Assembly: GCA_020073665.1 (NCBI GenBank)
Contig: JAIQEU010000004.1
Coordinates: 186,001-250,000 of the forward strand
Reading direction: 5' to 3'
From: Terriglobia bacterium
GTDB taxonomy: Bacteria > Acidobacteriota > Terriglobia > Terriglobales > Acidobacteriaceae
Length of the DNA: 64,000 bases
This document shows, in pieces, positions 5,785 through 13,947 of the stretch. The position numbers and the translations under genes are program-made. Position 1 is the stretch's first letter. The number at the start of each line of letters is the position of its first letter. A model generated the notes under the pieces. That model was not told where the DNA came from. It saw only the letters and a list, made by a program, of their open reading frames with translations, and made no database searches.

Positions 5785-6516
5785 TTAGCCGCAGGCTGAG
5801 GCGCTCTTGGCCAGGGCCTGAGTTTTCTCCAAAGACACTGCACTACGGAAATACAGCCGGTAGGAAAGGTGGGTCGCGTACATCACCGGGAGAGCCAGCA
5901 CAGGTATCGGCCAGCCGACGTGGGCACTCGCGGTAGCCACTATTGAGGTCACTCCGGCGCTGAGCACGTAGTAAGGGAATGAAAGGTGGAAGATAGTCGA
6001 CCAGATCCGTATCAGCTTCCCACCTTCGGTGAGCGAGATCACCGCAGCCACGGGAATCGTCTGGGCACAGAAGAAGCCCGTCGCGACCAGTACCAGCAAC
6101 AGCGAACTCGACGCCCAGTTGGCCCCGCCTGCTCCGCGCTGCTGGAAAACCAGGTTACCAATCCCCACGGCGACCGCCATAGTGCTGAGGTTGAACAGCA
6201 ACTGCAGCGGTTGCAGCTTGCTTCTATCCTTGGGAAAACACTGCACCAGGGTCGAGGCCAAGCCAACTATAAGAGCCTCGAACAGGCTCAACTGGACAGT
6301 TGCGATCAGTATGAATGGAAGATTGACCGACATGTTGCTGTTCAGGCCCGGCAGCTTGAGCTTGAACCTGGACGCCACGACGGCGATCATCAGCAGGGTC
6401 AGGACCCGGAAGTATTGCACCCGGTGCCAATGCAGCAGCGCATCACCAGCGACCAGGAGTGCGGTGGTCGTCATCAGCCCGGTGAATATCTTTGCTTGTC
6501 GTGCACTAGTTGTCAT
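5785..6516 (-). CDS. Multi-pass membrane protein, sensor-domain-like, without output domain
   Basis: Starts at the ATG at 6516 ('MTTSARQAKIFTG'); a longer frame to 6615 adds Arg-rich text that does not look coding. The 243 residues hold six or seven helices. The block 'VASRFKLKLPGLNSNMSVNLPFILIATVQLSLFEALIVGLASTLVQCF' resembles the integral-membrane sensor part that in acidobacteria usually precedes a GGDEF or HD-GYP domain. Here the protein ends right after the last helix ('SLEKTQALAKSASACG'), with no signalling output. It may be a truncated sensor or a free-standing membrane module. Confidence 0.65.
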   Translation of the reverse strand: MTTSARQAKIFTGLMTTTALLVAGDALLHWHRVQYFRVLTLLMIAVVASRFKLKLPGLNSNMSVNLPFILIATVQLSLFEALIVGLASTLVQCFPKDRSKLQPLQLLFNLSTMAVAVGIGNLVFQQRGAGGANWASSSLLLVLVATGFFCAQTIPVAAVISLTEGGKLIRIWSTIFHLSFPYYVLSAGVTSIVATASAHVGWPIPVLALPVMYATHLSYRLYFRSAVSLEKTQALAKSASACG

Positions 6517-6645
6517 CGCAGCGCTATGTCCGTTTTTCTGTTCGCGTCGGTTTACTGTCCAGCGCCGACCAGCAAGGGACCCGAAATATGTGTCCCTTGG
6601 AAGTCTCGCCCCCACACCCGTCGCCGGGAAACGGTGCCGCCGGCG

Positions 6646-8448
6646 TTATTCTTCCCCGTCTGCATCCACCGACAGCGCTTCATTGGAGTCCGTGGCGGTT
6701 TCCCAGACCACGCTCAGAGCCGAGTCGGTAGACGTACCCCAGACCACGCTGAAGCCGCTCGCGGTGTTGGTTCCCCACACTACCGAGGTGCCCCACACCA
6801 CCGAATTGGCGTTGACGTTCGTACCCCAGACCACGGAAGTACCCCACACCACCGATGTTCCCCACACCACGGAGGCCGCCGGGATTGAGGAGTTTCCGTA
6901 GAGCAGAGAAACTGTCCCGTTGGAAGAGTTGTAAACGGCGGTTGGCGAAAGTGCGCTCCCGATATTGTCCGGGGTCTTGTCGCTGTTCGCAACCGCGGCC
7001 GCGATATCCAGGTAGCCAGCGCCCACCGTAAACAGGTCGTAGTAGGAAGTGAAGGTCTGCAGGGTTACCGGATCGGTAGCGACGGTATAAGTCGGAAAAG
7101 TTTTGTAGGCGGTCTTCATCAGCCGCGCCTTGACCTGATCGGGCGTCAGGCTCGGATCCTGCTGCAGCAGCATCGCCGCCGCCCCACTCACCACGGGGGT
7201 GGCCATGCTGGTGCCGCTCAGGACAAAATAGTCGTAACTGGGGCGAGAGCCACGCCGCTTGTTGGACGGGAACTCAGCCAAGAGTGTGCTTCCCGGATCA
7301 ATGATGGACCGGATCAGATTGCCCGGGGCCACGATGTCCGGCTTCACGATGTGGTCGTAGGTCGTGGGTCCCTTGGAACTGTAGCTGGCAATCTGATCGT
7401 CGCTGCGGCTGGCAGTGCTCATCGTCTTCATTCCGCCAACTGTGATCACGTAGGGATCGTTGCCGGGAGCTGCCACGGTGCCATAGCCGTTGCTGCCATT
7501 CACACTCAGCCGGCCGAAGTTTCCGGCAGCCACTACCACCACGATGCCCGCTCTCCAAGCCTGTTCCACCGCCTGGCAGAGAGGATCGTTGACATAACTG
7601 GTGAAGATGGGGCGGCCCAGGGACAGGTTGATGACGCGAATGTTATAGGCGTCCTTCAGGTCGATCGCGCGCTGAATCGCGGCAATCACGTTGCTGTCCG
7701 ATCCGGCGCCGTTCCGGTCGAGTACGCGGAGGTCAATCAGATCCGCACCGTAGGCGATTCCGGTGTACTGACCGTTCGAATCGGAGCCGTCTCCCGCCAG
7801 GATACCCGCCACATGCGTGCCGTGACCGTAAGTGTCATACACCGCGACTCCAGCGGAATTGTAGACCGAAGTCCCGGTAAAATCCTGGTGATAGACCACG
7901 TGGGATTGGCCGGAGGAGCTCATCAGGTCGTCGTGATTCCCGTTGATGCCGCTGTCAATCACGGCGACGCCCATACCCATACCCCAACTGCCCAAGCCCA
8001 GAGAACGAGCTGTGCCGGTGCCGATGGCAGCATCGGTGAGATCGTCCGCCGCTTTCACCTGGTGGTCGGGCACGATGTAGTCAACGTCGGGATCGTTGGC
8101 CAGACCGCGAAGAGCCGACGCCGGAAGCGAAAAAGCGCCGCCGCGAATCAGGTTTAACCGCGCGTTCAACTTGCCGCCCCGGTTCTGCACCATGCTGAAG
8201 TGGCGTGCCTGGGGATTTTGCTTGAACTGCACAATCACGCGCACATTCTTGTTGGCAGCCGGGGATGCCGCCACTTGGGCGCTGAGCCTCTCCAGTTCAG
8301 GCGCCATCTTGCTCGTCCGCCGCTCGAAGCCATCTTCGCTGCGGAACGAACGGACTGCCTGTCCAGAGCTTAGGCTAGCGGCCAAGGCCAAGGTAAGTAG
8401 GCCCAATACTCTTCCCCACGCTGCACTCCACAATTTCTTGCGGTTCAT
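6646..8448 (-). CDS. Secreted S8 subtilisin-like serine peptidase with C-terminal SVVWGT repeats
   Basis: Starts at the ATG at 8448 (AACGGGGAAACC just upstream), giving a 600-residue preproprotein; a GTG at 8478 would add ten residues. The signal peptide spans about 1-30, and an I9-type propeptide about 68-130 ends 'DVDYIVPDHQ'. The catalytic triad is Asp165 (VAVIDSGING), His209 (GHGTHVAGILAG) and Ser414 (SGTSMATPVVSGAAA), with oxyanion Asn310. An insertion lies near 380-405. The last 75 residues carry six SVVWGT units and one SVVWET, separated by short Asn/Thr/Ser linkers, then an acidic end. The peptidase assignment is secure; the role of the repeat tail is not known. Confidence 0.95.
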   Translation of the reverse strand: MNRKKLWSAAWGRVLGLLTLALAASLSSGQAVRSFRSEDGFERRTSKMAPELERLSAQVAASPAANKNVRVIVQFKQNPQARHFSMVQNRGGKLNARLNLIRGGAFSLPASALRGLANDPDVDYIVPDHQVKAADDLTDAAIGTGTARSLGLGSWGMGMGVAVIDSGINGNHDDLMSSSGQSHVVYHQDFTGTSVYNSAGVAVYDTYGHGTHVAGILAGDGSDSNGQYTGIAYGADLIDLRVLDRNGAGSDSNVIAAIQRAIDLKDAYNIRVINLSLGRPIFTSYVNDPLCQAVEQAWRAGIVVVVAAGNFGRLSVNGSNGYGTVAAPGNDPYVITVGGMKTMSTASRSDDQIASYSSKGPTTYDHIVKPDIVAPGNLIRSIIDPGSTLLAEFPSNKRRGSRPSYDYFVLSGTSMATPVVSGAAAMLLQQDPSLTPDQVKARLMKTAYKTFPTYTVATDPVTLQTFTSYYDLFTVGAGYLDIAAAVANSDKTPDNIGSALSPTAVYNSSNGTVSLLYGNSSIPAASVVWGTSVVWGTSVVWGTNVNANSVVWGTSVVWGTNTASGFSVVWGTSTDSALSVVWETATDSNEALSVDADGEE

Positions 8449-8772
8449 TTTGGTTTCCCCGTTTCCAAACATCGCCACGGCTGTCTAGAGGAGCAAGCCT
8501 TGTTCCACGTGGGTTAGCTCGTAAGTTCTTGATTACACGATCCAGCCGCGAACGCGCCGGCTGGCTCTTGGGACAGGCTGTCCCAGGGTTGGGCCAGTCA
8601 AGCCAAAACGTGGCCCTGCACCCGTAACCTTAAGGTGATTACTGGTGGAAGGCGCAAACTAGAAGCTTTGAGCGCAAGAAGCGATGAAAGGCCGCCACAA
8701 AACCGGCAAGCAATGTCCGCCGGACCCCGGGGGAGCTGGATTCGGGTATGAACCGGTGGGACAATCAACGTG
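8449..8772. promoter_or_regulatory. Intergenic region with a 17-base palindrome upstream of the subtilase
   Basis: About 320 bases between the divergently read subtilase and a small plus-strand gene. TGGGACAG-G-CTGTCCCA at 8569-8585 is a perfect palindrome with a one-base centre, about 120 bases upstream of the subtilase start, so a repressor or activator site is possible. A second pair (AGCCG / CGGCT) lies at about 8543-8563. I see no RNA gene here. Confidence 0.3.
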
Positions 8773-8977: not shown

Positions 8978-10336
8978 TTAACCTTCTACCGCATCCGGTT
9001 CTTCAGGCTCTACCGTCCAGCCTTCCTCTACCATCTTCTGGCAGAGCCAACGCTTCAGTTCCTTCCGAGCCGCGGAGCTGACATCGGTGAAAGTGACACC
9101 CGCCCGACCCTGCGCGCCACCCCACGCTACCCGTGCAAGTACGTCCACCGGGGCCTCGGAGCCAGGAAGCAGTAGGTGAACGGTCAGCACAGAGTTGTAA
9201 TTTAGGGCAGCGGTCAAGCCCTCCAGTCCCATCCCACCCAGGCTCAAATTAGTGGCTATGCAGGCCACTTCCTGGCCCTCAGGGGTTCGCAGCGATATTG
9301 GAAGCTTTACGTCGGCGCGGAAATCGTTTTGCTGTTCGCAGCTCAACGATCCCATGGCAACGGCTGCCACGCGTCGGGCAGAAGCGAATCCGAACTCCTT
9401 GAGCTTCCGGCTCAGGGTACGGCGCGAGATGCCGAGTTGCTCCGCCGCCCTGCCGCGATGTCCGCCGGTGCTTTGGAGCGCTTTCTGGATGGCCTGCGCT
9501 TCCAAGCTGTCCAGATCAGTGGTGGACTCCGTGCCCTCCGCCGGCGCGCCGGCACTCTCATCCGATGGCGTGAGTTGCAGGCGAACCTCGGAAAGTCCGA
9601 TCTCCGGGCCCTGCGCCGAAACCATGACCTTGTTCACCACGTTCTGCAGCTCGCGCACATTCCCCGGCCAGGAGTACGACTCCAGCATCCGCAGCGCATC
9701 CGGAGAAAACCTGAGGGCGCTGCTCTCTTGCGCCATGAAATGTTCGGCCAGGGCCACGATGTCCTGGGGGCGTTCGCGGAGTGGTGGCACCGAGAGCTCG
9801 AACTGGCTCAAGCGGTGATAAAGATCTTTGCGGAATCGCCCGGCACTCACTTCCTCTTTCAGGTTGCGATTGGTGGCTGCTACCACCCTCACATCGGAGG
9901 TGATTTTGCGATGGCCGCCCAGGCGATAGTACGGAGCCCGGTCCAGGATGCGGAGCAGTTTTACCTGTACCTTGAGGTCAAGCTCGCCGATTTCATCCAG
10001 GAAGATGGTCCCCAGGTGCGCCAGTTCGAACAATCCAGGCTTGCCGGTATCGGCACCGCTGAAAGCGCCTTTCTCGTAACCGAATAGTTCGCTCTCTACC
10101 AGGTTTTCTGGCAAAGCGGCGCAGTTGATTTCCACGAAGGGTTGCTCGCACCGCAACGACTGCTCATGGATGGCATGGGCGATCAACTCTTTGCCCGTGC
10201 CGGTTTCGCCAACGATCAACACGGTTCCGACGTGGCGGGCTACTCGCTCCGCCATGCCCATGAACTTGCGCATGACCTCGCTGGCCACGATGAACGGCTT
10301 GCCGTGGACCGGATTGTTGGACGTCGAGGTAGCCAT
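8978..10336 (-). CDS. Sigma-54-dependent transcriptional activator with C-terminal PilZ domain
   Basis: A 452-residue NtrC-class activator. The AAA+ core starts almost at the N-terminus: Walker A GETGTGKE (43-50), the sigma-54 contact loop GAFSGA (90-95, usual form GAFTGA), Walker B IFLDEIGEL (about 111-119) and 'LRERPQD'. A Fis-type helix-turn-helix follows at about 275-316 (RGRAAEQLGISRRTLSRKLKEF). The final 110 residues form a PilZ-like barrel with the 'NLSLGGMGLEGL' strand. There is no N-terminal receiver, GAF or PAS domain, so the PilZ is the only candidate sensor. The upstream arginines of the c-di-GMP RxxxR motif are not obvious, so ligand binding is uncertain. It is divergent from the ABC operon at 10656. 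Confidence 0.9.
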   Translation of the reverse strand: MATSTSNNPVHGKPFIVASEVMRKFMGMAERVARHVGTVLIVGETGTGKELIAHAIHEQSLRCEQPFVEINCAALPENLVESELFGYEKGAFSGADTGKPGLFELAHLGTIFLDEIGELDLKVQVKLLRILDRAPYYRLGGHRKITSDVRVVAATNRNLKEEVSAGRFRKDLYHRLSQFELSVPPLRERPQDIVALAEHFMAQESSALRFSPDALRMLESYSWPGNVRELQNVVNKVMVSAQGPEIGLSEVRLQLTPSDESAGAPAEGTESTTDLDSLEAQAIQKALQSTGGHRGRAAEQLGISRRTLSRKLKEFGFASARRVAAVAMGSLSCEQQNDFRADVKLPISLRTPEGQEVACIATNLSLGGMGLEGLTAALNYNSVLTVHLLLPGSEAPVDVLARVAWGGAQGRAGVTFTDVSSAARKELKRWLCQKMVEEGWTVEPEEPDAVEG

Positions 10337-10655: not shown

Positions 10656-11516
10656 ATGCGCAGATTTGCCAGACATGCCGCCAGGATCCTGATCATCTTG
10701 CTGCTCGGCGGCTTCCTCGGAGCCACGCTGGTGCGCCTGGCGCCGGGATTTGGCACTGACGAGGAGGAATTGGATAGTCGTCTCAACCAGCAAAGTATCC
10801 AGGCGCTCCGGCAATCGCACACCAACGACGGCAGTCTCGGACAGTTCTACCTTCACTATTTGACCCGGCTCTTGCATGGCGACCTCGGGACCTCGAAGAC
10901 TCTGCAGCAACCGGTGACGCGGCTTCTTGCCGAGCGATTCCCCGAAACCCTGAAATCGGTCGGCATGGGACTGGCCTTGGGCTGGAGCCTGGGCCTGGCA
11001 TTAGCCATCGTCGCCGTGATGTCGCGGAGCTGGTTCATTGATCTGTTCACCAGCCTGGCAGCGGGCGCTTTGCTGTGCGTGCCGGCCGCGGTGCTGGCAC
11101 TTTTGTTCGTGATCGCGCAGGCACCGGGACGGTTGGTTCTCGGCCTGGTGGTGTTTCCCAAGATCTTCCGCTACGCCCGCAACCTGCTGGCACGCAGCGC
11201 GTCCCTGCCCCACGTTCTGACCGCAAGAGCCAAAGGGCTGGGCGGCTTTCGCGTATTGCTGTGGCACATCCTGCCCGTGGCCGCACCGCAGTTGCTGGCC
11301 TTGGCCGGGGTCTCTGTAAGTCTCGCGTTTGCGGCGTCGATTCCCGTGGAGGTGCTGTGCGACCTCCCCGGCATCGGCCAGCTCGCATGGAAGGCTGCCA
11401 TGGGGCGAGATCTCCAGCTGCTGGTTAGCCTGACGATGGTCGTCACCGCGGTCACGTTGGTGGCCAATTCCGCCTCCGACCTCGTGGGACGGTCGCTCCG
11501 CGAAGGTGCAGCATGA
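10656..11516 (+). CDS. Peptide-type ABC transporter permease (DppB-like)
   Basis: A 286-residue inner-membrane permease and first gene of a four-gene operon. It has the DppB pattern: an N-terminal helix, a periplasmic stretch ('DSRLNQQSIQALRQSHTNDGSLGQFYLHYLTRLLHGDLGTSKTLQQPV'), then five membrane segments. The ATPase-contact loop reads 'YARNLLARSASLPHVLTARAKGLGGFRVLLWHILPVAAPQLL', and 'DLPGIGQLAWKAAMGRD' is the usual C-terminal signature. It overlaps the next permease by four bases (ATGA), a sign of translational coupling. Likely substrates are peptides or similar solutes; the sequence does not decide. Confidence 0.88.
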   Translation: MRRFARHAARILIILLLGGFLGATLVRLAPGFGTDEEELDSRLNQQSIQALRQSHTNDGSLGQFYLHYLTRLLHGDLGTSKTLQQPVTRLLAERFPETLKSVGMGLALGWSLGLALAIVAVMSRSWFIDLFTSLAAGALLCVPAAVLALLFVIAQAPGRLVLGLVVFPKIFRYARNLLARSASLPHVLTARAKGLGGFRVLLWHILPVAAPQLLALAGVSVSLAFAASIPVEVLCDLPGIGQLAWKAAMGRDLQLLVSLTMVVTAVTLVANSASDLVGRSLREGAA

Positions 11517-12319
11517 AGTGGGCTCGAGTCGCGGCTATCGTGTTCCTGGTTGTGGTCTCGGCCGCGTGTCTACTGGCGGACTTTGTCGCCCCCGCTCCCT
11601 ACTCGCACCAGTTTCGCGATGTGCCCGACGCCGCGCCTTCCCGCCAGCATCTTCTCGGTACCGATGATCTCGGACGCGACCGCTTTTCCCGCTTGCTCTA
11701 CGGTACGCGGGTTTCGCTCCTGCTGGCGCCGGCGGCGGCGCTGCTGTCCAGCCTGCTCGCCGCCCTGATCGGTGGCACTGCCGGTTTTGTTGGAGGCTGG
11801 CTGCAACGCAGCGTGATGGCTGCGACCGATCTGTTCCTTTCGCTGCCTTGGCTCTTCCTGCTCATCACCGTGCGCGCACTGCTGCCGCTCAACGTGGCCC
11901 CGATCACCTCGGTGCTGATTACATTTGCTTTGCTGGGATGCCTAGGATGGGCGGCGGCCGCGCGCGTGATCTGCGCCGATGCCCGTACACTCGGCAGTTC
12001 CGACTTCATGCTGCTGGCGCGCGCCTCCGGCAGCAGTGGCTTCCGTCTGTTGTGGCGTCACCTGCTCCCCAATCTGAAGCCGATACTCTTCGCCCAGTTC
12101 TGGATTTCGATTCCAGTCTTCATTTTGACCGAAGCCAACCTCGGCATTCTCGGCCTGGGTGTGGCCGAACCGCTTCCCTCCTGGGGCAGCCTGCTGCGGG
12201 AATTGGAGAGTTTCTCGGCCTTTTCCGGACATCCCTGGCAGTTCGTACCTCTCATTCTGTTCATCGTGGTGGTCAGTTGCTTTCATCTTGCTTTGCAGAA
12301 ACAGGAGCTTTCGGCATGA
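11513..12319 (+). CDS. Peptide-type ABC transporter permease (DppC-like)
   Basis: A 268-residue permease that partners the preceding DppB-like subunit. The N-terminal helix is followed by the family's 'HLLGTDDLGRDRFSRLLYGTRVSLLLAPAAALLSSLLAALIG' block. The coupling loop is 'DFMLLARASGSSGFRLLWRHLLPNLKPILFAQFWISIPVFILTEANLGILGLGVAEPLPSWGSLLRE', typical of DppC/OppC. Its stop overlaps the start of the substrate-binding protein gene. Confidence 0.9.
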   Translation: MKWARVAAIVFLVVVSAACLLADFVAPAPYSHQFRDVPDAAPSRQHLLGTDDLGRDRFSRLLYGTRVSLLLAPAAALLSSLLAALIGGTAGFVGGWLQRSVMAATDLFLSLPWLFLLITVRALLPLNVAPITSVLITFALLGCLGWAAAARVICADARTLGSSDFMLLARASGSSGFRLLWRHLLPNLKPILFAQFWISIPVFILTEANLGILGLGVAEPLPSWGSLLRELESFSAFSGHPWQFVPLILFIVVVSCFHLALQKQELSA

Positions 12320-13947
12320 AACAACGCTTGGTTCGCTTGGCTTTATCACTTTCGGTTGTGCTGACCATCAGCCTCGCCGCCGCGCAATCCGGCAGCGAGT
12401 TGCGGTTCTGCCTAAGGGCGGAACCCAAGACTTTGAACCCGGTGCTTATGGCCGACGAACCCTCGGAGACGGTTCGTTATCTTACCGGCGGCGTGCTGAT
12501 GCGCTTGAACCGCCTCACTCAGCAGTTAGAACCGGAGTTGGCCACATCCTGGAAGGTCAGCGAAAACGGCAAGACCATCAGCTTCAAATTGCGCCAGAAC
12601 GTGCGCTTCTCCGATGGAACTCCATTTTCCGCCGAAGATGTTGCCTACACCATGCAGCAACTGATGGACCCGGACTTGCATTCGCCCACCGGGGACGCGT
12701 TCCGTTCCGGCGAGGGTAAAGTCATCACCCAGATCACCGGAAAGAATCACATGACCGTCACCTTCCCGGCGCCAGTTGTGGGCCTGGACAAACTGTTTGA
12801 CCAGGTGGCGATCATGTCGGCCAAGTCGCCAGAGAAAGAAATGGCCGTGCTTGGCCCTTATTACGTGGCCGAGAACAAGGCCGGTTCCTACCTGATTCTG
12901 AAACGCAATCCGAATTACTGGAAGCACGACTCGTCCGGGCGACAGTTGCCGCACATCGAATCAGTCCGGCTGGATATCCAGCAGAACCGCGACATGGAGA
13001 TGCTCCGCCTGGTGCGTGGAGAAATCGACTTCGTCAACTCGCTGGACGCGGAGTATTTCGACAAACTTGCAGCACAAGCGCCGAACATGGCCACCGATGC
13101 GGGAGTCTCGCTCGACTCCGAGCAGATGTGGTTCAACCAGGTGGCGAGTTCTCCCCTACCGGCGTATAAGAAAGCCTGGTTCACTTCCACAAATTTTCGG
13201 CGGGCGATCTCAGAAGCTATCAATCGCGAGGATCTGGCGCGAGTGGTCTTCCGCGGTCATGCTCGTCCCGCAGTCAGCTGGGTGTCTCCCGCCAACAAGT
13301 TCTGGTTCAACGCCAAGCTCCAGCCCCATCCTTATGACCAGAAATCCGCGCTGCAGGCTCTCGCGCAGGATGGATTCCACATGCAGGACGGAGCACTACA
13401 CGACCGCGACGGGCACCTGGTGGAGTTCTCTGTCATCACCAACGCCGGCAACAAGTATCGCGAGCGCATGGCGACGATGATCCAGCAGGATCTTTCCGGC
13501 ATCGGCATCCGGCTCAACGTGGTCACCCTCGACTTCCCTTCGCTTATCGAACGCATCACCCGCAGCTTCGACTACGAGGCCTGCCTGCTGGGCCTGGTCA
13601 ACAACGATCTGGACCCGAATTCGCAGATGAACGTCTGGCTTAGTTCAGCGGAAAATCACCAGTGGAACCCCAGCCAGAAAACTCCCGCAACCACCTGGGA
13701 AGCGGAGATTGACACGCTCATGCGTGCCCAGGCTTCTACGTTAGACATGAAGAAGCGGAAGCACGCCATTGATAGGGTGCAGGAGATCGTGTGGCAGCAG
13801 GAGCCGTTCATTTACCTGGTGAACAAGAACGCGATGTCCGCGGTTTCCGCGGCTGTGCACAACGCCCACCCGGTGGCCCTGACACCTCAGGTGTTCTGGA
13901 ACATCGACCAGCTCACGCTCGGCACCGAGGTGGCAAGAAACCGCTAA
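12316..13947 (+). CDS. Family 5 extracellular solute-binding protein of ABC transporter
   Basis: Starts at the ATG at 12316, which overlaps the permease stop (ATGA); the frame is open far upstream, but that part covers dppC. The 543-residue product has a signal peptide ('LSLSVVLTISLAAAQS') and the SBP_bac_5 fold: 'ELRFCLRAEPKTLNPVL', 'LEPELATSWKVSENGKTISFKLRQNVRFSDGTPFSAEDVAYTMQQL' and 'FRRAISEAINREDLARVV'. It captures the substrate in the periplasm for the two permeases. No lipobox Cys is seen, so it is probably soluble. Substrate class is likely oligopeptides, by family only. Confidence 0.92.
   Translation: MKQRLVRLALSLSVVLTISLAAAQSGSELRFCLRAEPKTLNPVLMADEPSETVRYLTGGVLMRLNRLTQQLEPELATSWKVSENGKTISFKLRQNVRFSDGTPFSAEDVAYTMQQLMDPDLHSPTGDAFRSGEGKVITQITGKNHMTVTFPAPVVGLDKLFDQVAIMSAKSPEKEMAVLGPYYVAENKAGSYLILKRNPNYWKHDSSGRQLPHIESVRLDIQQNRDMEMLRLVRGEIDFVNSLDAEYFDKLAAQAPNMATDAGVSLDSEQMWFNQVASSPLPAYKKAWFTSTNFRRAISEAINREDLARVVFRGHARPAVSWVSPANKFWFNAKLQPHPYDQKSALQALAQDGFHMQDGALHDRDGHLVEFSVITNAGNKYRERMATMIQQDLSGIGIRLNVVTLDFPSLIERITRSFDYEACLLGLVNNDLDPNSQMNVWLSSAENHQWNPSQKTPATTWEAEIDTLMRAQASTLDMKKRKHAIDRVQEIVWQQEPFIYLVNKNAMSAVSAAVHNAHPVALTPQVFWNIDQLTLGTEVARNR

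Follow-up and report, generated by a model that had tools for sequence, protein, structure and literature searches.

An apparently exported S8 subtilase, encoded in a 64,000-nucleotide stretch of a Terriglobia bacterium genome (GenBank GCA_020073665.1, contig JAIQEU010000004.1; hereafter the window), ends in an array of tryptophan-containing hexapeptides. This array is the window's version of a C-terminal repeat, (N/S/T/G/A)-(I/V/A)-V-W-G-(T/N/S/D), with a minimum spacing of six residues. The comparisons below suggest that the array, or tail, is a conserved repeat domain of one exported acidobacterial subtilase lineage. We tentatively favor the reading, to which we give somewhat less than an even chance, that it folds into a short β-solenoid whose tryptophans stack and which tethers the enzyme to a surface or polymer.

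The subtilase of the window and its relatives

The protease gene occupies 6646..8448 on the minus strand and encodes 600 residues from an ATG at 8448, with a GTG at 8478 as a possible alternative start (610 residues). Its catalytic domain (residues 158-452; 7093..7977, minus strand), mostly confident in the AF2 model, matches the Pfam Peptidase_S8 model (PF00082) with an E-value of 1.2e-53 and 182.7 bits against a cut-off of 21.8. The same domain is present in all 37 aligned proteins, and the Asp/His/Ser triad, D165, H209 and S414 in the window protein, is invariant across them; proteolysis by the window enzyme is predicted. Residues 1-32 (8353..8448, minus strand) were recognized by inspection as a likely signal peptide. 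The nearest solved chain to the S8 domain is 3afg, and a second S8 match in the genome of the window is 36% identical over residues 149-442. The best plasmid-borne relative, among 15 matches listed of 18 records, is an S8 peptidase of Pseudalkalibacillus (39.3% identity). The catalytic domain and triad are common to these S8 subtilases, whereas the tail is additional relative to the plasmid matches, all 15 of which stop short of it, by residue 502, and extend over no more than 63% of the query.

The n-region of the signal peptide contains an AAWG(R) motif (8411..8424, minus strand; the window reads LWSAAWGR). Of 70 tailed proteins, 16 were judged by eye to have a comparable A-x-W-G-(R/K/P)-like motif, echoing the VWG of the tail, immediately ahead of the hydrophobic signal-peptide core; a script had flagged 20, of which four (L052, L070, L071, L144) were judged to be something else. 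Besides the window, its carriers include the N-termini of L048, L049, L056, L061, L067, L075, L103 and L128; the pattern has 70 matches in the genome of the window, 30 of which were inspected. In PADLOC, the window-type proteases match only subtilase/IetS protease models, and a role in a defense system was set aside, the program giving no match for the neighboring MASE9-like protein or GNAT described below.

The tail array spans 6697..6873 on the minus strand (residues 526-584 of 600). The earlier note, made from the letters of this DNA, had described six SVVWGT units and one SVVWET, and all seven were located on the minus strand, the former at 6856-6873, 6838-6855, 6820-6837, 6787-6804, 6769-6786 and 6733-6750 and the latter at 6697-6714, with starts at residues 526, 532, 538, 549, 555, 567 and 579. 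A first insert, NVNAN (6805..6819, minus strand), occupies a position that recurs in relatives, and the second, NTASGF (6751..6768, minus strand), has the T-N-T-x-x-G-F look that is often seen by eye at the second insert of relatives. The protein closes with a polar, acidic C-terminus (6649..6696, minus strand) that ends in D-G-E-E. No Pfam or NCBIfam model reached its cut-off on the window tail, in keeping with the earlier view that no described domain has this sequence, and no named domain that includes the pattern was found.

Codon comparisons between the seven window units gave 126 pairs, of which 58 are identical, 62 differ synonymously and 6 differ non-synonymously. Since 62 of the 68 differing pairs are synonymous, the repeat appears to have been kept at the protein level rather than copied recently as DNA, and this synonymous divergence rules out slippage as the origin of the window array. 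The codons are diverse and the array is widespread, unlike the slippage product with identical codons, confined to one gene, that had been entertained as an explanation. The argument that constant units with variable linkers point to a purpose thus holds as regards the units; the linkers are less free than it supposed, as their positions and approximate lengths recur. A two-unit VWG pattern has 13 matches in the genome of the window, five of which constitute the window array; the other eight stand singly elsewhere, none of them in an ORF with three or more VWG units. Because these other matches stand alone, the window array is not attributable to chance.

Anatomy of the repeat

In 75 arrays the number of units ranges from 4 to 21, and the spacing between successive tryptophans is most commonly six residues (259 cases), which is also the shortest common spacing, followed by 11, 12, 10, 14 and 13; a spacing of seven was seen three times and one of four once. 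Counting from the tryptophan as position 0, V occupies -1 in 89% and G occupies +1 in 96% of the units, -3 is mostly N or S and -2 is I, V or A, these counts having been made within the search pattern of the script so that the constancy of V, W and G is partly built in. Asparagine is found at -3 in 59% of the units counted, the window having serine. One array (L073) reads TNWVWG, with tryptophan at both -2 and 0. A spacing plan of 6, 6, 11-13, 6, 12 recurs in many SVVWG-type tails.

Across 88 arrays comprising 815 units, residue agreement at -3 is 0.84 within proteins versus 0.28 between them, and at -2 it is 0.83 versus 0.30, a contrast as expected of stacked ladders. Codon pairs for the same residue differ at a frequency of 0.40 within arrays and 0.56 between proteins; the window stands at 0.64, and arrays of more recent look occur in some relatives, the eight lowest values being 0.14-0.21. 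The units are thus alike within a protein yet encoded by different codons, which suggests that selection, and not recent copying, keeps them so, at least in the window.

The extreme C-terminus is likewise patterned: a G-(E/D)-x0-2 end is seen in 38 of 56 complete non-NIVWG tails as against 16 of 468 other ORFs. Such a recurring end raises the prospect of a tag for sorting or export, in which a secretion or surface-attachment machine would recognize either the repeats or the end itself, and the tag might afterward be removed. The invariably C-terminal place of the tail on an apparently exported enzyme, and the W-G motif in 16 of 70 signal peptides, would suit such a tag. We nonetheless regard it as rather improbable, given that none of 28 NIVWG-type tails has the G-(E/D)-x end and that, wherever the gene is in view, the arrays sit on S8 proteases and no other exoprotein was seen to carry them, although a sorting tag is usually shared by many proteins.

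Certain Asp-rich NIVWG tails (L056, L086, L120, L127) display DxDGD-like loops and paired Cys residues (DCGGADCDN), features that hint at metal binding or disulphides, and some of these continue into Pro- or Thr-rich ends.

Phyletic distribution

A pattern of three VWG units matched 25 of 396 genomes of the phylum. In 21 of the 25, arrays lie in an open frame and by translation end an S8 protein; in the other four (G092, G153, G029, G314) no array was found at the locus. A scan of a species-genome collection recovered at least 117 stretches, from which 80 loci were listed: 47 have an S8 domain upstream of the array (46 by script and L101 by separate reading) and 6 are cut near the edge of the locus. 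The records of these 53 loci are titled as kinds of Acidobacteria, save L100, titled Acidimicrobiia. The remaining 27, from other organisms, were judged to be chance or low-complexity matches. The repeat tail is therefore likely to be restricted to Acidobacteriota among the matches listed. It had been surmised that similar repeats occur in other acidobacterial exoproteins and that a pattern search would reveal their attached domains and taxa; the repeats are indeed present in this phylum, and their distribution is narrower than surmised, the domain being, among the matches listed, the S8 protease wherever the gene is in view.

These repeat scans required V-W-G, which partly builds in the constancy of these three residues. 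A complementary set, found through the S8 domain rather than the repeat and hence free of this bias, comes from the GTDB family of the window: 35 places in 17 of 60 genomes, 30 of which were read as loci and five of which had no locus. One of those read (L204) is cut by a contig end, and another (L208) has a stop codon ahead of the tail. All 28 complete genes read, that of the window included, carry the tail, which argues that it is a regular feature of this subtilase lineage, and W-G is kept in this set as well. In the face of this regularity, a low-complexity expansion without function is barely credible: the repeat number does vary, as such an expansion would, but the tail is present in every complete family gene read, and the codon pairs of the window array show 62 synonymous versus 6 non-synonymous differences.

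A tree of the S8 domains of 85 tailed proteins has two halves, one of 33 rows with mainly NIVWG tails and the other of 52 rows with mainly SVVWG tails and their kin. Two tailed subtilase genes (G400:C108, at L208, and G237:C8, at L060) are apparently broken by stops or frame changes, and the same genomes have unbroken paralogues. A 350-residue ORF from an Alphaproteobacteria-labelled record (L150:6686-7735, plus strand) contains DNVWGT-like repeats spaced about 8-9 residues apart; it has no S8 motif and just one Pfam match, which is insignificant. Among the matches listed in a search of open-licence literature, we found no account judged relevant to the repeat, to acidobacterial subtilases, to MASE9, or to a subtilase with HD-GYP or sigma-54 in Acidobacteria.

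Structure prediction and comparison with known repeats

In the AF2 model of the window protein (37 sequences), the protease and prodomain region is mostly confident, and residues 523-598 have a pLDDT below 50. Extended, β-prone peptides suit subtilase clefts, and the repeats are of this character, so that they might act as an internal brake, occupying the active-site cleft as pseudo-substrates until removed. In the model the tail is not positioned with confidence against the enzyme, and a copy number that ranges from 4 to 21 likewise counts against such a brake, which we consider very unlikely. For the isolated tail of a relative with 14 units (7 sequences), AF2 produced a β-solenoid with the pattern EEEE--EEEE--, a block pLDDT of 61-72 over residues 61-120 and a pTM of 0.47, and the other four models averaged 29.6-49.0; with low-to-moderate confidence, this longer tail is predicted to be a β-solenoid.

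A Foldseek search of the PDB with the 14-unit model gave no match at E ≤ 0.001, the best having an E-value of 0.5. The insignificant matches include the functional amyloid FapC (E 0.74), in line with an alternative in which newly made tails have no order and then join from molecule to molecule as amyloid-like, sticky strands in the manner of hexapeptide steric zippers, so that the protease becomes anchored in an extracellular matrix. The low pLDDT of the window tail and the β-branched and aromatic residues of the hexapeptides fit this possibility, and the identity of units within an array suits in-register stacking too. An unordered sticky tail would, however, need neither inserts of recurring position and length nor a recurring C-terminal end, and we consider this alternative unlikely.

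In VIA-align over 69 candidate chains from the Foldseek search, the low-to-moderate-confidence model of the 14-unit tail matched best the ryegrass (Lolium perenne) ice-binding protein 3ult (Z 10.5, 89 aligned residues, rmsd 2.7, 39% identity), followed by β-helix enzymes with Z of about 5-7. Searches of the PDB with tails, as profiles or as single sequences, recovered left-handed β-helix proteins as four of four matches at E ≤ 10 in one case (best E 0.00028) and as eleven of eleven in another (best E 0.026); further searches gave a mixed list of 15 in one instance and one left-handed β-helix among three matches in another. The window tail itself drew two insignificant matches, neither of them a left-handed β-helix protein. 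We take the matched proteins other than NeuO to have the folds so labelled. For NeuO, the label of left-handed β-helix follows the published account of that protein (PMC3046976). When the tail was reversed, 10 of 14 matches were also left-handed β-helix proteins, and of two permuted tails one gave three matches, all acetyltransferases, and the other none. Six-residue periodicity by itself can therefore draw β-helix matches. What at first looked like strong sequence proof of a left-handed β-helix was thereby undercut and was kept as weak support, and the solenoid is accordingly treated here as a hypothesis. Two tails also match the NCBIfam LpxD model (E 0.003-0.004), though they fall far short of its cut-off, and this counts as weak support of the same kind; the window tail does not match the model.

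The features common to the tail and the left-handed β-helix of hexapeptide repeats are the six-residue period, loops between units, and a small followed by an aliphatic residue two positions apart. The tail differs in having a tryptophan beside the aliphatic residue or in place of [LIV]; by inspection, it departs from the consensus [LIV]-[GAED]-X2-[STAV]-X, tryptophan falling in either the [LIV] or the [GAED] place. The Pfam hexapeptide family gave no match in the window protein at E ≤ 1, nor in six isolated tails at E ≤ 10. As the consensus is not followed, we do not claim membership in that family.

RTX calcium β-rolls have the motif GGXGXDXUX. Pfam RTX/HemolysinCabind models gave no match in 37 proteins at E ≤ 0.01 nor in six isolated tails at E ≤ 10, and in NCBIfam a single weak RTX match was obtained (L056, E 0.03), far below the cut-off.

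The ryegrass ice-binding protein (PMC6834126) is built of XXNXVXG seven-residue repeats, so that N-x-V-x-G is common to it and the NIVWG type. It is a free protein with polar residues at X, whereas the units described here have six residues, contain tryptophan and form the tail of a fused protease. The seven-residue repeat is not the pattern of our arrays, in which a spacing of seven occurs three times, the window moreover having S for N, and since the period differs, we do not class the tail as of the ryegrass type. The best structural match thus has seven-residue repeats, which speaks against the solenoid reading, as does the length of the seven-unit window tail, amounting to about two turns. 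In the designed β-helix SaBeH (PMC12081914), an exposed tryptophan drives contacts between helices and Asn ladders are present; unlike the tail, SaBeH was designed from one 18-residue rung, has a single tryptophan and is cationic.

In the solenoid we favor, each six-residue unit would form one short β-strand and a tight turn, and the units would stack with the polar inserts looping out at fixed places. We prefer the register in which -3 (N/S/T/G) and -1 (V/I/L) point inward and -2 and the tryptophan point outward, since -3 is small and -1 aliphatic, like the inward positions of hexapeptide solenoids, and since the two tryptophans of the L073 units, at -2 and 0, are more easily accommodated outside than inside. 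The result would be a tryptophan ladder, capped by the acidic G-(E/D)-x end, and multivalent contacts of this ladder may keep the enzyme on a surface, a polymer or another tail. The wall- or polymer-binding anchor and the strand stack suggested in the earlier note both fit this arrangement.

Gene neighborhood and candidate promoter

The stop codon of the window protease is followed after 30 nucleotides by the start codon of a gene for a 276-residue, MASE9-like membrane protein (5785..6615, minus strand; PF20972, 35.6 bits with a cut-off of 24.3). Downstream of 81 tailed genes, the largest ORF within 400 nucleotides is co-directional in 53, the nearest large ORF is on the opposite strand in 24, and there is none in 4. 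Fifty of the 53 co-directional ORFs were scanned, omitting one each of L046, L093 (cut) and L147 (an S8): 24 fall in one similarity cluster with the window MASE9 protein and 11 are GNATs. Because the BLAST cluster might have been joined by shared output domains, it was rechecked. When the window protein is the BLAST query, 20 of the 50 neighbors are recovered directly at E ≤ 1e-3, and a profile of 15 short members finds all 24 and no others, including four found by profile only (L053, L063, L064 and L148, with E-values of 1e-28 to 4e-14 in the set of 50); the 24 were thus upheld. By Pfam at E ≤ 0.001, the 50 neighbors include 12 matches to the MASE9 model, 11 to GNAT, 7 to HD_5 and 3 to S8. 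MASE9-like partners occur in both halves of the S8 tree, those in the NIVWG half being the four profile-only cases. Within the NIVWG branch, a group comprising L065, L066, L067, L070, L126, L127 and L129 instead has a conserved GNAT acetyltransferase after the tailed protease; its sequence often begins MEKMPY, and its start mostly lies at or over the S8 stop codon.

The association extends to the level of genomes. In the 60 genomes of the family, the window MASE9 protein used as query has matches at 53 places in 28 genomes, which include all 17 with the S8 protease (hypergeometric P 5.5e-8, related genomes not being independent). A MASE9 match lies within 2.5 kb of 24 of the 35 S8 places, in 16 cases downstream and co-directional and in 8 upstream and divergently oriented, with 11 of the 35 S8 places and 29 of the 53 MASE9 matches unpaired within this distance. 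Of 30 MASE9-type loci, 21 were taken, and in the 21 proteins scanned HD_5 and GAF_2 were found in 16 and GGDEF in 15, the MASE9 model itself exceeding its threshold in 8; the stand-alone protein of the window is without an output domain.

A BPD_transp_1 permease gene (10656-12944, plus strand) also lies near the protease in the window, and the ORFs after it group with ABC-transporter-like ones in the vicinity of L048 and L103.

The adjoining membrane sensor prompts consideration of the tail as a store of peptide signals, with the subtilase freeing tandem hexapeptides that the MASE9-like protein senses. The fusion of protease and repeats, the permease gene close by in the window, and units that are alike within a protein and different between proteins would all accord with this. 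Against it are the retention of W-G across the family, linkers without a uniform cleavage site by eye, the GNAT partner in another branch and stand-alone MASE9-like copies, as in the window, that have no output domain; we give it a slim chance. Extended to a self-contained module, in which an exported subtilase bears its own signals, a MASE9-type receptor sets c-di-GMP once proteolysis has freed them, and sigma-54 exerts control, the idea is compatible with the divergence of units between proteins, their likeness within them and the linkage to a membrane sensor, and in our estimation it is equally slim.

Upstream of the protease gene is a candidate sigma-54-like element, TGGAACAAGGCTTGCT (8492..8507, minus strand), scored against the -24/-12 consensus of sigma-54 promoters. 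A perfect 17-bp palindrome, TGGGACAGGCTGTCCCA (8569..8585), lies upstream of its -24 part and is a candidate activator site; when an 18-bp pattern was tried, the window site was the only place in the genome without mismatch. The next gene upstream encodes a sigma-54 activator with a Fis-type HTH and a PilZ domain (8978..10336, minus strand), to which ORFs at four other loci (L047, L064, L073, L087) are similar. Elements with at least 9 of 12 consensus matches precede 38 of 70 tailed genes versus 57 of 569 other ORFs (Fisher 7e-17), the latter control being diluted by spurious ORFs. They lie 25-99 nucleotides before the first ATG in 33 of 39 matches for tailed genes and in 17 of 59 for other ORFs, the first ATG often being upstream of the likely true start. 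In the same genes, coding stretches match at this threshold as often as upstream stretches (39 of 71 versus 38 of 71), so that the count of elements alone proves nothing and it is their position and the comparison between genes that matter. On these grounds, tailed genes tend to have sigma-54-like promoters.

Functional and evolutionary implications

Returning to the tryptophan-faced solenoid, the gene context, which together with the conserved C-terminal G-(E/D)-x end goes beyond the earlier note, suggests that the enzyme may be made within a regulated module. This would comprise a sigma-54-like promoter, a MASE9-like membrane sensor that in some relatives carries HD-GYP and GGDEF domains and, in the window, the neighboring PilZ-bearing sigma-54 activator.

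The tail, which recurs in many variant sequences, appears to be a genuine functional part of the enzyme rather than an accident of sequence. It appears to represent a repeat domain hitherto undescribed, borne by a single lineage of exported proteases in the soil phylum Acidobacteriota, and this lineage is tied to genes of the MASE9/c-di-GMP and sigma-54 types. If it is indeed a solenoid, it would be a hexapeptide solenoid with a tryptophan face, and hence a useful module for binding or self-assembly; if instead its units serve as signals, it would represent a new way of making and sensing peptides.
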